Assembly (NCBI RefSeq): GCF_000312385.1
Contig: NZ_HE997626.1
Span: 731,206-795,205 of the forward strand
Direction of reading: 5' to 3'
Length of the DNA: 64,000 nucleotides
Source of the DNA: Tsukamurella sp. 1534
GTDB lineage: Bacteria; Actinomycetota; Actinomycetes; Mycobacteriales; Mycobacteriaceae
Shown: piece by piece, positions 40,603-44,979 of the stretch
Layout of the letters: each line of letters opens with the position of its first letter
How positions within the stretch are numbered: position 1 is the stretch's first letter
Made by a program: the position numbers and the translations under genes
Notes under the pieces: model-generated
The model's input: only the letters and a program-made list of their open reading frames with translations
Database searches by the model: none
What the model was told of the DNA's origin: nothing

Positions 40603-41274
40603 TCAGAGCTTGGCGGCCACCGTCTTCACGACCCCGTCGAAGGCCTTGGTGTCCACCTTCCCGTCCGCGCCGGGGTTGGCGTTGACGAGTGCGGTGACTC
40701 CGGCCCCGGTGAAATAGGCCGAGGCGGCGCGCGTCGTCTGTTCGCCGGAGACGCGGGTGATCTCGAGTACGAAACCCTCGGCTCCGGTGCCGTCCGGCAG
40801 GGCCTTCCTCACGGTGGTCTGCTTCGCGCCGCCGATCTGCACCTCGGCGCAGGGGCCGGTGCCGGCTGCCTCGAACACGGAGAGCTTCGCGGAGTCCGGG
40901 AGGAAGTTGATCCCGTAGAGCACCCGGCCGTCCTTCATGATGTTCTGCTGCACACCTGACTTCACGGTCTCCATCAGCTCCTGCTGTGCGGCGACGTTGC
41001 GCTGCTTGCACTCCGCGGGCCGGATGTCCGCGGACTCCACACCCTGCACGGAGGTCATGGCCGCCTGGAACGCGTCGTCCGACGGCACGGTCATGACGGT
41101 CTGCCCCGGCGCCACGTCGGCCTGGGTCAGGGACTTGCCGAGGGCCGCGTCGTTCGACGGGGCCGTGCTGGGGCGTGCGGCGTCCTCGCCTCCGCCGCAC
41201 GCGGCGAGGACGAGCCCCACCGCCAGGACGGACGCTGCTGCGCCGAGGGAACGGACCGACTGACTGGGACGCAA
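40603..41274 (-). CDS. Putative lipoprotein
   Basis: A 223-residue protein with a lipoprotein signal peptide: basic start, hydrophobic core and lipobox LAAC (Cys about 26), then GGGED. The mature part is about 195 residues with three further cysteines and a segment AGTGPCAEVQIGG resembling the extracellular sensor fold seen in mycobacterial PknH-like and Lpp proteins; that likeness is weak. Start is TTG at 41274, with GGAG six bases upstream. It probably sits on the outer face of the membrane. Function unknown. Confidence 0.7.
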   Translation of the reverse strand: MRPSQSVRSLGAAASVLAVGLVLAACGGGEDAARPSTAPSNDAALGKSLTQADVAPGQTVMTVPSDDAFQAAMTSVQGVESADIRPAECKQRNVAAQQELMETVKSGVQQNIMKDGRVLYGINFLPDSAKLSVFEAAGTGPCAEVQIGGAKQTTVRKALPDGTGAEGFVLEITRVSGEQTTRAASAYFTGAGVTALVNANPGADGKVDTKAFDGVVKTVAAKL

Positions 41275-41308: not shown

Positions 41309-44300
41309 TTAGACGGTACCGAATCCGCGCAGGAATGATGTAGCGAAACCAGGGTAACCCCCGTGTGCCATCGCGCGCCGGGCGGCCGCCGCCAGGGCGA
41401 CGAAGAAGTGCTCGTTGTGCAGCGTGCACAGGGTGACCGCCAGGCCCTCGTTCGCGGCGAACAGGTGGTGGACGTAGGCGCGGGTGAACTCGTCCGCGCG
41501 GTTGGGCACACCCTGCCACCGCGCGTCGGGGTCCAGCGGCCGGAAGTCGGTCCGGTGCACCGGGTCCGTGAGGTCGACGATCCCCCGGGTGGTGAACACG
41601 GTGCCCGCGGCCCCGGCGACGGCGGGGCCGGTCCCGTCGATGAGATCGATCCCGGCGTCGATCGCGGCGAACAGGTCCGCGGGGTCCGAGACCCCGGCAA
41701 GGTAGCGGGGCCGGTCGGCCTCGAGCTCACCGACGGCGGCGCGCAGGAGATGGGCCCGCGCGGCCCCGTCGGCGCCCTCGATCCGGTAGCCGCCGAACCC
41801 GAGTCCGCCCTCCTGGCGGTCGTGCTCCGACGCGGTCCGCAGGGCGACCGCGGCGGCGCGGCGGAGGTCGGGATCGGCGCCTCCGGTGACGGTGGCCCAC
41901 AGGGAGACCGAATTGTGCCGGTCCGCGGTCTGCCACGCGTGCTCGATGAGCGCGCGCCGCGCCCAGGCGCCGGTACGGCCGACGCCCGCCTGCTGCGCGG
42001 AGCGGGGCTTGGCGGGGTCGACGGGGTCGGCGAGGGCGAAGGCCACGTCGACGCCCATCCGATGGGCGATCCGCACGGCGCGCTCGGGGTCCCAATCGTG
42101 CGGGGATCCGTCGAGCCTGCCGCGGAAGGCGATCCCCTCGTCGGTGACGCGGGTGCGCTTCTGCCGCCCGATCGCGCCGACACCGGTGTCGCCGAACACG
42201 GGTGCGGGCCAGGCCATCGCGGCGCCGATGCCGCCGAGGCCCTCGATCACCTCGGGGCCGGGCTGCAGGTACATCTCGTGCAGGTCCACGGTGAGCGCGC
42301 GGGCGCCGAGCCGGATCATCTCGTCCGGCGTGATCCCGGCGATCGCGCCGCGCCCGGCAACGGGAACGTAGGCGGGGGTGGCGATCTCGCCGCGCGGGGT
42401 GGTGAGCACGCCGGCGCGGGCGTTGTCCGGGCCGTCGGCCTCGACGCGGAAGGACGTCGATTCGGTGATGCCGGCGGCGCGCAACCGGGTGTGCCCGGCG
42501 ATGGCGCGGTAGCCGGTGCGCAGCTCGGCGAGCTCCGCGGCGAGCGCGTCGTTCTCCGCGCGGAGCTCGGCGATCTCGGACCGCGCGGGATCGGGCACCA
42601 CGCGCTCGGTCCGGGCGGGCTCGGTCCGGGCGGGCTCGGATCGGGCGGGATCGGATCGGGCGGGATCGGCGGCGGTGATGGGCTCGGTCCTTTCCTGCGG
42701 CGGTGTCACAGCAACAATAGGCGCCGTCGCGGCGAGATCCGCCGTCGCACCCGCCGCGGCGGCCTCGTCGCCGTTGGCCTCGATCCCCGCGGCGGTGCGC
42801 AGCGGCACCGACTTCCAGAACAGCACCAGCACCAGGCCGATCGCGGACAGCACGGTGACGGCGAGGAACACCACGTCCATGGAGTCCGCGAAGCCCGCCT
42901 TGAGCGGATGCACCAGCGTGCCGGGGAGCTTCTCCAGCGCCGAGGTGTCGGACATGACGTCGCTGACGGCGCCGGAATCGCCGTGCACCAGCTGGGTGGC
43001 GAACGCCTGCGCCTCGGCACCGTCGTGCCCGGCGGCCGCACGCTGGACGGCGCCGGTGTACTCGGGGTCGTTGGCGGCGTCGGTGAGGCGGCCGGACATC
43101 TTGCCCGGCATCTGGGCGAACAGCACGGAGAGGAACACGGCCACGCCGAGGGTGCCGCCGATCTGCCGGAAGAAGGTGGCGGCGGCCGTGGAGACGCCCA
43201 TGTCGCGCGGCGGCAGGATGTTCTGCATCGCCAGGGTCAGCGGCTGCATCAGGTTGCCGAGGCCGAAGCCGACCACGGCGGCACCCGCCATGACGTAGCC
43301 GATGCGCACATCGGCGCTCACGTAGTGCAGGCCGAACATGCCGGCGGTGAGCAGGACGGCGCCGATCACCGGGTAGATCCGGTATCTGCCGGTGCGGGAG
43401 ATCATCTGCCCGGCCAGGATCGAGCCCAGCATGAGGCCCGCGACCATCGGCAGCATGAGGAAACCCGATTCGGTGGGGCTGGCGCCGCGCACCACCTGGA
43501 AGTACTGGGGCAGCAGCGAGATTCCGCCGAACATCGCGGCGCCGACGACCACGGAGATGAGGACGCCCTGCGCGAAGATCCGGTTCGCGAAGATGCGCAG
43601 CGGGATGATCGCGTCCTCACCCATGATCTTCTCGATCACCACGAACGCGACGACCCCCACGGCGCCGACGGCGTAGCAGATCAGGGACTTCGACGCGCCC
43701 CATCCCCATTCCTGGCCCTGTTCGGCGACGATGAGCAGCGGCACGAGGCCCACCGCGAGCGCCACGGCGCCGAACCAGTCGATGCGCACGCCCTCGCGGC
43801 GGGTGTGCGGGAGCCGCAGCACCCGGAAGACGACGGCCAGGGCGATCATCCCGATCGGCACGTTGACCAGGAACACCCAGCGCCAGCCGGAGATCCCGAG
43901 GATCTGGTCCGCCCCCGAGAACAGGCCGCCCAGCACCGGGCCCAGCACCGAGCTGGTGCCGAACACCGCGAGGAAGTAGCCCTGGTACTTGGCGCGCTCG
44001 CGGGGCGGCACGATATCGCCGATGATGGTGAGCGCCAGCGACATCAGCCCGCCCGCACCGATCCCCTGCACGGCACGGAAACCCGCCAGCTCGTACATCG
44101 ACGTGGACGTGCTGCACAACAGCGAGCCGATGACGAACACCGTGATGGCGAACATGAAGAAGGGCTTGCGGCCGTAGATGTCGGACAGCTTGCCGTACAG
44201 CGGCGTCACGATCGTCGACGTGATGAGATACGCGGTGGTGACCCACGCCTGCTGCGAGTAGCCGTGCAGATCGTCGGCGATCGTGCGGATCGCCGTCGAC

Positions 44301-44437
44301 ACGATGGTCTGGTCCAGCGCCGCGAGGAACATGCCGGTCATGAGCCCGGACAGGATGTAGAGGATCTGCTTGTGCGTCAGCAGCGGCGCGGCCTCGGCGG
44401 GCCCGGCCGGCTCCGGGCGGGTGGCGGTGGCGGACAT
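41309..44437 (-). CDS. MFS (DHA2) transporter fused to a degenerate tRNA-guanine transglycosylase-like domain
   Basis: A 1042-residue fusion. Residues 1-545: 14-helix drug:H+ antiporter-2 transporter, with LDQTIVSTAIRTIADDL, the A-loop GKLSDIYGRKP and motif C LGPVLGGLFSG. Residues 546-662: an Ala/Pro/Glu linker with PAR-repeats (591-619) and a coiled coil (620-642). Residues 663-1042: a full-length TGT-like domain (TTPRGEIATPAYVPVAGRG, YLQPGPEVIEGLGGI, GFGGYRIEG, EFTRAYVHHLFAANEGLAV, TLHNEHFF). Asp750 and Asp934 match the two catalytic Asp positions and His1007 the zinc histidine, but GGFQ, DCVLPTR and the three zinc cysteines are lost. ATG overlaps the MarR stop by one base. The frame has no stop in the linker. 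Transport substrate and the domain's role are unknown. Confidence 0.85.
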   Translation of the reverse strand: MSATATRPEPAGPAEAAPLLTHKQILYILSGLMTGMFLAALDQTIVSTAIRTIADDLHGYSQQAWVTTAYLITSTIVTPLYGKLSDIYGRKPFFMFAITVFVIGSLLCSTSTSMYELAGFRAVQGIGAGGLMSLALTIIGDIVPPRERAKYQGYFLAVFGTSSVLGPVLGGLFSGADQILGISGWRWVFLVNVPIGMIALAVVFRVLRLPHTRREGVRIDWFGAVALAVGLVPLLIVAEQGQEWGWGASKSLICYAVGAVGVVAFVVIEKIMGEDAIIPLRIFANRIFAQGVLISVVVGAAMFGGISLLPQYFQVVRGASPTESGFLMLPMVAGLMLGSILAGQMISRTGRYRIYPVIGAVLLTAGMFGLHYVSADVRIGYVMAGAAVVGFGLGNLMQPLTLAMQNILPPRDMGVSTAAATFFRQIGGTLGVAVFLSVLFAQMPGKMSGRLTDAANDPEYTGAVQRAAAGHDGAEAQAFATQLVHGDSGAVSDVMSDTSALEKLPGTLVHPLKAGFADSMDVVFLAVTVLSAIGLVLVLFWKSVPLRTAAGIEANGDEAAAAGATADLAATAPIVAVTPPQERTEPITAADPARSDPARSEPARTEPARTERVVPDPARSEIAELRAENDALAAELAELRTGYRAIAGHTRLRAAGITESTSFRVEADGPDNARAGVLTTPRGEIATPAYVPVAGRGAIAGITPDEMIRLGARALTVDLHEMYLQPGPEVIEGLGGIGAAMAWPAPVFGDTGVGAIGRQKRTRVTDEGIAFRGRLDGSPHDWDPERAVRIAHRMGVDVAFALADPVDPAKPRSAQQAGVGRTGAWARRALIEHAWQTADRHNSVSLWATVTGGADPDLRRAAAVALRTASEHDRQEGGLGFGGYRIEGADGAARAHLLRAAVGELEADRPRYLAGVSDPADLFAAIDAGIDLIDGTGPAVAGAAGTVFTTRGIVDLTDPVHRTDFRPLDPDARWQGVPNRADEFTRAYVHHLFAANEGLAVTLCTLHNEHFFVALAAAARRAMAHGGYPGFATSFLRGFGTV
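42605..42670 (-). repeat. Tandem 15-bp repeats in the MFS-TGT linker
   Basis: About four copies of a unit like CGGGCGGGCTCGGTC, encoding DPARS/EPART pentapeptide repeats in the linker between the transporter and the TGT-like domain. Copy number may vary between strains. Confidence 0.6.
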
Positions 44438-44910
44438 CAGGCCTCGCGCATCAGCCGGAGGGCCTGCTCGAACTGGCCGAGGGCCCGGTTGCCCAGGGTC
44501 ACGAACTGGTCGATCTCCTCGTCGGTCCACTGCTCCAGGAGCGGCCGCAGGCGCAGGTTGCGCTGTTCCCGGATGAACTCGAACTTCTCGCGTCCCGCAT
44601 CGGTGGCGGCCACGAGGGCCGCACGACGGTCGGACGGGTCGGGGCTGCGCTCGGCGTAGCCGAGCGTGGTGAGCGTCGTGACGTACCGGCTGGCGGTGGA
44701 GGGATCGGTGTGGATCGTCTCCGCGAGCACCGAGGACCGCATGGGGCCGTCGTTGACGAGCGCGAACAGTGCGGTGTAGGCGGCCAGTTCCACGCCGTCG
44801 GGCGCGACGGCGTGCCGGGTCATCGCCGCATGCCGCTCCTTGAGCCGGGTGAGCTCAGCGATCACCCGGACCAGATCCTCGATCCGCTGGGCACGTTCAT
44901 CGTCGGTCAT
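44437..44910 (-). CDS. MarR-family transcriptional regulator
   Basis: A 157-residue winged-helix regulator, typical of drug-efflux control. The DNA-binding part is SSVLAETIHTDPSTASRYVTTLTTLGYAERSPDPSDRRAALVAATDAG, with the DxRxx wing motif. ATG 44910 has GGAGG four bases upstream. It is the first gene of a two-gene operon with the MFS-TGT fusion (one-base overlap), and a perfect palindrome stands upstream, so autorepression with release by a ligand is likely. Confidence 0.88.
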   Translation of the reverse strand: MTDDERAQRIEDLVRVIAELTRLKERHAAMTRHAVAPDGVELAAYTALFALVNDGPMRSSVLAETIHTDPSTASRYVTTLTTLGYAERSPDPSDRRAALVAATDAGREKFEFIREQRNLRLRPLLEQWTDEEIDQFVTLGNRALGQFEQALRLMREA

Positions 44911-44979
44911 CACGCCTCCGTCGAGATCCGGGCGCCACGGCGGGCCCGGAGTCGGACAAACTGCGTGCAGCCTACAACT

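Follow-up and report, generated by a model that had tools for sequence, protein, structure and literature searches.

A transporter gene of Tsukamurella sp. 1534 carries, in the same reading frame, a degenerate relative of tRNA-guanine transglycosylase (TGT). The gene lies on the minus strand at positions 41309–44437 of the 64,000-nucleotide stretch of contig NZ_HE997626.1 analysed here, hereafter the window, and its frame is uninterrupted over 1042 codons and a stop, as an earlier annotation made from the letters of the window alone (the sequence-only reading) had described. A drug-type DHA2 transporter of the major facilitator superfamily (MFS) is followed by a repetitive linker, a predicted coiled coil and the TGT-like domain, the last two of which we call the tail. 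The fusion itself is already in print; what looks new, from comparison across the genus, is the tail as a conserved module on several transporters, apparently unable to do its old job. We take the tail to be probably a neofunctionalised or structural derivative of TGT. Our best explanation is a cytosolic dimerisation or coupling tail, which we hold tentatively and at somewhat less than an even chance.

Architecture of the fusion and state of its TGT-like domain

A search for the same fusion in Tsukamurella genomes found it in all 14 complete orthologues of this transporter (DHA2-A, window included), each in one open frame with TGT; a 15th orthologue, in G011, is cut short by a contig end, and none is present in G009. 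This recurrence rules out, as the origin of the fusion, a sequencing error or missed stop codon in the linker, either of which would have undone the sequence-only reading. The transporter half matches Pfam MFS_1 over residues 32–431 (178 bits) and passes the NCBIfam model TIGR00711 with 265 bits against a cut-off of 230, which places it in the DHA2 class. Hydropathy gives 13 peaks in residues 1–560, with a further peak at 559–577 in the Ala-rich linker; the peaks plus one weaker helix fit a 14-helix protein, the count of the DHA2 family, as annotated earlier for residues 1–545. The half resembles the EmrB/EfpA-type DHA2 exporters, scoring 160 bits to solved EmrB and 123 to EfpA, and we know of no such exporter with a TGT tail.

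Both parts of the connecting region that had been annotated, repeat and heptads, are present. The linker contains 6.3 copies of a 15-bp repeat at 42575–42669, and the coil core reads Ile622, Leu625, Asn629, Leu632, Leu636, Leu639, Tyr643 and Ile646. The same heptad register recurs on every transporter, in all 40 tails that reach this stretch, with the core I/L-L/I-N-L/I/M-L-L-Y-I/M/L/T, of which the Asn, both later Leu and the Tyr are identical in 40 of 40. This count comes from an alignment built without the motif as reference; the 41st tail, L101, is a fragment that ends short of the coil. Searched as a pattern, the coil matches only tail frames among the 2330 frames of the fusion loci, L080 departing from the search pattern by one Arg-to-Lys change, and it is absent from every frame of 12 loci from related genera. 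An Asn in the core is typical of coils that pair as two parallel strands.

The C-terminal part matches the Pfam TGT model PF01702 over essentially its full length (residues 672–1038, profile positions 2–354 of 357, 241 bits against a cut-off of 26.3), so the domain belongs to the TGT superfamily, as had been proposed, and a chance match is rejected. It also aligns along its full length with PDB chains of bacterial TGT (Z. mobilis, E. coli; 4e-49), whose catalytic Asp pair it shares; it differs from them in lacking the guanine/preQ1 recognition residues and the zinc cysteines and in being fused to a membrane protein. The Tgt equivalog model TIGR00430, which describes the enzyme, is matched below its cut-off (196 versus 307 bits).

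Residues were counted in Zymomonas numbering over 15 sequences of the window's group, L002 and L102 having been dropped beforehand as duplicates of the window. The 30 single TGTs used for comparison were the top-scoring loci among 142 matching genomes, a biased set; 12 more were picked separately. Roles of positions 102, 106, 156, 203, 230, 260 and 280 and of the dimer hot spot are those given in the relevant part of PMC5395182. In the window, Asp750, Asp934 and His1007 align with Zymomonas TGT Asp102, Asp280 and His349, and all three are kept throughout the group (15/15), so the retained catalytic Asp pair and zinc His noted earlier are real; so is the loss of GGFQ, VLPTR and the zinc cysteines. 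The set that recognises the base (Asp156, Gln203 and the Tyr/Phe106 loop) is broken in all 15: position 106 is deleted and Asp156 is Ala in every sequence, and Gln203 has become Thr in 13 and Ala in 2. Position 260 is Ala in 8 of 15, Gly230 is kept in 14 of 15, and positions 231 and 232 fall in alignment gaps in all groups. Asn70 is replaced by Asp and His73 by Glu without exception, and the window's pocket has the new residues Asp718, His720 and Glu721. Because the recognition residues are lost throughout, the module for binding guanine or 7-deazaguanine that the sequence-only reading had proposed is unsupported.

The canonical TGT of the genus, by contrast, keeps its base-recognition and catalytic residues: Asp102, Ser103, Phe106, Asp156, Gln203, Gly230 and Asp280 are all present in 15 of 15 complete domains (fragment L101 excluded). 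The zinc site is not diagnostic. Its Cys3His set is incomplete in the window's group, where His349 is left and the cysteines are gone; the cysteines are missing as well from the canonical Tsukamurella copies and from 9 of the 12 TGTs that related genera encode as separate, unfused genes (L122–L130), and these nine keep the following HN motif. L132 and L133 retain the cysteines, and L131 is unresolved in the stretch compared. Since unfused relatives lack them too, cysteine loss is a lineage trait and was rejected as a sign of decay. The numbering of the zinc ligands, like that of the tRNA-contact arginines Arg286 and Arg289, is the one we take to apply.

Of the domain's 332 columns, 184 are near-invariant in the window's group. 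The best-kept segment is the helix block that faces the dimer mate (Zymomonas 324–352), which is 0.64 identical to the canonical copy, against 0.35–0.57 elsewhere, and 0.89 identical within the group. In it the hot-spot positions Tyr330 and His333 are retained and position 326 is Phe, each in 15 of 15.

Distribution, descent and selection of the tail

All 16 Tsukamurella genomes compared match TGT, with 41 TGT genes after joining of pieces: 16 canonical, 17 of the window's type and 8, with a more degenerate domain, on a second MMPL transporter (MMPL-B). Fourteen canonical copies are in frame with another MMPL transporter, MMPL-A, whose nearest solved MMPL structure is MmpL3; in G009 the MMPL and the TGT are in different frames, and the G011 copy is a contig-end fragment. 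The 17 window-type tails comprise 14 on DHA2-A, one on another DHA2 transporter in G007 (L067; 26–28% identical where aligned), one on a third in G010 (L077; 27% identical to the window's) and one free. The L067 and L077 transporters are not orthologous, and each bears a tail in a single genome. Five transporters carry the tail in the genus: MMPL-A, MMPL-B, DHA2-A and, each confined to a single genome, DHA2-B and DHA2-C. The free copy (L066 / L140), in Tsukamurella sp. PLM1 (G009), is a 452-amino-acid coil and TGT frame directly behind the MarR gene, with the transporter absent; that assembly is a single contig with a completeness score of 83%, and other genes in it are frameshifted, so the locus deserves a check. 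Canonical and degenerate TGTs occur together in 15 of 16 genomes, the exception being the fragmented assembly G011. The window's own genome (G000, 4.50 Mb) has only one further TGT match, canonical and in frame with an MMPL transporter. MMPL-B is a 766-amino-acid frame with no TGT match in G012, and in G015 (G015:C3:3866357-3872255) it is interrupted, its two matched pieces lying ~3.7 kb apart with a stop inside one frame.

Outside the genus, 132 of 141 family genomes have one TGT each and nine have none, and fusions in other family genera find no support among the 132. In the long frames around these TGTs that were read, such as the 716–717-amino-acid frames of L047, L048 and L052, the sequence before the TGT looks by eye like open frame rather than protein, a judgement that does not extend to longer ones such as the 872-amino-acid frame of G052. 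Scanning the collection with the tail gave 11 loci, nine of them named Tsukamurella; the other two, from Rehaibacterium and a Chlamydiae metagenome-assembled genome, are distant TGTs of 31 and 26% identity.

The transporter is distributed differently. In a search of 21 other genomes of the family, 16 proved to have an orthologue (E ≤ 1e-100), 62–68% identical in 15 and 56% in one, none in frame with TGT and all sited apart from any TGT of their own; two of these genomes, G026 and G032, have the plain transporter and no TGT match at all. Because such plain orthologues are found away from TGT, the transporter is, on this comparison, older than its fusion.

A tree of 55 TGT domains (fragment L101 omitted) speaks to the origin of the tail. 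All Tsukamurella copies form one clade (100/100). Nested in it is a single clade of all the degenerate copies (100/100), whose neighbour is the canonical copy of G010 (97/83); the window's group has support of 100/99. How the degenerate branches follow one another is unsure, since branches are long. The degenerate tails are thus descendants of a duplicated TGT. The L067 tail clusters with tails from G006 and G012 rather than with G007's own. In related genomes, an mmpL gene lies upstream of the separate tgt on the same strand in 6 of 12, directly adjacent in five and ~1.9 kb off in one (L126); in L122 and L133 the mmpL and tgt open frames are parted by one in-frame stop codon. The other six have no mmpL within the stretch examined.

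The window-type tail is under purifying selection. Ratios of non-synonymous to synonymous change (dN/dS) were estimated by the Nei–Gojobori method, which is rough on GC-rich genes, from 13 DHA2-A sequences (78 pairs; L062, L066, L067 and L077 left out), 14 MMPL-A fusions (L100 and L101 left out) and 7 MMPL-B fusions (L083, cut by a contig end, left out). The DHA2-A medians are 0.157 for the transporter, 0.535 for the linker, 0.168 for the coil and 0.196 for the TGT-like domain. The free copy of G009 gives 0.319 against its 13 relatives, close to the 0.336 of the window's own against 12, which gives no sign of relaxed constraint once the transporter was gone. In the MMPL-A fusions (L091 at G000:C1:1507300-1516500; L086–L099), it is the TGT half that changes more slowly (0.089, against 0.262 for the transporter half).

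Operon, queuosine context and earlier literature

The fusion gene sits under a MarR-family regulator, which Pfam confirms as annotated earlier. The MarR stop and the transporter start overlap in TGATG, and because of this the two look like one operon. A MarR-like frame is found upstream in 15 of 15 DHA2-A transporter or free-tail loci, window included, and also in all six plain transporter orthologues read. The next gene downstream (Table 1) has relatives adjoining 14 of 14 further DHA2-A or free-tail loci, the relative being weak in G010 (64 bits) and split over two frames in G009; none was found beside L067, L077 or the six plain orthologues from other genera, and the lipoprotein is perhaps a genus-specific partner of the fusion. 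A role in anti-phage defence was rejected, PADLOC having given no match.

Table 1. Features of the fusion gene and its neighbours, in window positions.
Feature	Position	Strand	Basis
Whole fusion gene (DHA2 transporter, linker, coil, TGT-like domain), 1042 aa	41309..44437	minus	frame, Pfam and NCBIfam
DHA2 drug-type MFS transporter, residues 1–545	42803..44437	minus	TIGR00711 over cut-off
Repetitive, fast-evolving linker, residues 546–620	42578..42802	minus	15-bp repeat; dN/dS 0.54 for 546–610
Coiled-coil heptads, residues ~621–648	42494..42577	minus	3-4 spacing
TGT-like domain, residues 670–1042	41312..42430	minus	Pfam; PDB TGT chains 4e-49; residue tables
MarR-family regulator, first gene of the operon	44437..44913	minus	Pfam MarR_2/MarR
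Predicted lipoprotein, family unassigned, next gene downstream	40603..41274	minus	Pfam: no match

QueA is absent from 16 of 16 Tsukamurella genomes (9 of 14 control genomes match), so the genus must salvage if it makes queuosine at all. A dedicated family of queuosine-precursor transporters, QPTR, is found in all 16. The QueC profile is matched in 15 of 16 genomes at 20.7–22.4 bits, 14 of them over the cut-off of 22; these matches cover only profile positions 5–60 of 210, in frames of 656–1255 amino acids, and we read them as another ATP-binding enzyme rather than QueC. Qng1 gave no match in the genus, nor in any control genome, and its absence is therefore uninformative. Most likely, then, the genus salvages queuosine precursors through its dedicated transporter and would not need this MFS protein for import.

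That no transporter of this form had been described, as the sequence-only reading held, is wrong. TGT fusions of three transporter kinds were catalogued by Quaiyum et al. 2024 (PMC11130926): those of QPTR, and two from Tsukamurella in which the partner is an MFS protein (Tpau_0550) or an MMPL protein (Tpau_4044). They took such transporters as candidate queuosine-precursor transporters, and the genes assayed were others than these two. Tpau_0550 (UniProt D5USC3) shares architecture and genus with the window's gene, and G004 has a DHA2-A orthologue 85% identical in the transporter. The text presents it as a candidate from a fusion search, and the parts available to us are silent on the loss of base recognition, on other fusions beyond these, on the coil that the tails share and on the MarR operon. 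Tpau_4044 (D5UNC0) represents the second fusion of the genus, that of the canonical group, with the same coil before its TGT and a place in the neighbouring clade. Literature searches did not find the spread of the degenerate tail in print, but such zeros are weak, since a search for Tsukamurella and TGT missed PMC11130926, the supplementary tables of which lie outside this scope; a search by accession names found that paper only.

Possible roles of the tail

The history we favour would run as follows. An old MarR-controlled DHA2 exporter would have gained a cytosolic coil and a duplicated TGT as its tail in the Tsukamurella ancestor; the duplicated TGT has lost the residues for recognising guanine and 7-deazaguanine and, on this view, is no longer a working queuosine enzyme. 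The coil and the TGT dimer face may then hold two transporter chains together, or, alternatively, the tail may pair the transporter with the canonical MMPL-fused TGT, and either might affect transport. Such pairing would resemble the TGT dimer, in which one subunit merely supports the other: according to the part of PMC5395182 concerned, catalysis falls to one monomer while the other assists in binding the tRNA. In favour of this account stand the recurrence of the tail on five transporters and its presence alone behind MarR in G009, the single clade of degenerate tails, their constraint in the window's group, the shared coil, and the well-kept dimer-facing block with its residues at 326, 330 and 333. 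Several observations count against dimerisation. Of the classical interface, hot-spot residue Phe92 is Ala in 14 of the group's 15 sequences, and Lys52 is lost. The dimer-facing block of the MMPL-B tails is only 0.34 identical to the canonical one, and these tails are less constrained (dN/dS 0.336, against 0.094 for their transporter). Because the C-terminal block is conserved in TGTs generally, its conservation is no proof of dimerisation, and the newly fixed pocket-wall residues Asp718-Leu719-His720-Glu721 would be better explained by the binding of a ligand. A bolder form is rather unlikely: a portable cytosolic tail copied onto unrelated MMPL and MFS transporters would pair them with one another and with the canonical membrane-fused TGT, physically linking envelope transport to tRNA queuosine, with its pocket rebuilt for a new ligand.

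The pocket wall leads to the main rival, itself unlikely, in which the tail senses a ligand: the two old Asp together with Asp718, His720 and Glu721 would bind a small molecule or cation and gate or regulate the exporter. The membrane sensor suggested by the sequence-only reading likewise retains some probability. The Asp102 and Asp280 equivalents are indeed invariant in the group, and positions 69–73 are five consecutive residues unlike the canonical copy and near-invariant, the same also in L067 and the free L066; MarR–DHA2 operons, moreover, are typically drug-responsive. Yet conservation over 21 pocket columns (0.85) is not significantly above that of the whole domain (0.78; p = 0.077), and the acidic set is not general, because 7 of 8 MMPL-B tails have Glu in place of Asp280, and 7 of 8 have Arg at position 73. 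The tail might also be an inert passenger, a TGT copy pasted behind the transporter and decaying without function; for this speak the loss of motifs, the faster evolution of the MMPL-B tails, the interrupted MMPL-B gene of G015 and the tailless MMPL-B of G012. The low dN/dS and near-invariant columns of the window's group, its 14 of 14 open fused frames and the tail kept without a transporter in G009 make this account quite improbable.

Two further accounts keep the tail within queuosine metabolism. If the MFS half imported preQ1 or queuine and the tail captured the base, the fusion would be a precursor transporter joined to its enzyme, which is how PMC11130926, in the text available, reads TGT–transporter fusions, QPTR–TGT fusions among them; the want of QueA, and with it the need to salvage, would suit it. 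This is very improbable. Besides the lost base recognition, QPTR in 16 of 16 genomes and the plain orthologues in the TGT-less G026 and G032 are indirect evidence against uptake by the fusion and weaken the salvage role that the sequence-only reading had suggested. In the same text, a C. propinquum MMPL failed to complement preQ1 uptake, poor expression not being ruled out by its authors. The tail might instead still work on tRNA, assisting the canonical MMPL-fused TGT as a subunit without catalysis of its own, and of all these accounts we find this the least probable. The idea of a non-catalytic TGT partner is familiar from eukaryotic QTRT1/QTRT2, for which we know of no transporter fusion; in Tsukamurella the two kinds of TGT share one coil register and coexist in 15 of 16 genomes. 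Against it, presumed tRNA contacts are eroded, Arg289 being Ala in 13 of 15 and Arg286, kept in 12 of 15, being Val in the window, and every matching family genome outside the genus (132/132) manages with one TGT. The helper-subunit principle of TGT (PMC5395182, in the part cited above) speaks for it.

The genus shows a tRNA-modifying enzyme in the course of domestication as a tail on transporters, and the stages can still be seen: mmpL and tgt lie side by side in relatives, one fused copy keeps its active-site residues entire, degenerate copies under selection sit on other transporters, and one copy has no transporter. The guess in the literature that a TGT fusion marks queuosine-precursor transport is weakened, because base recognition is gone from this tail and Tsukamurella possesses a transporter family dedicated to that task. 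Whether TGT-fold domains may serve as dimerisation or sensor parts is now a question that can be tested directly on a small soluble domain.

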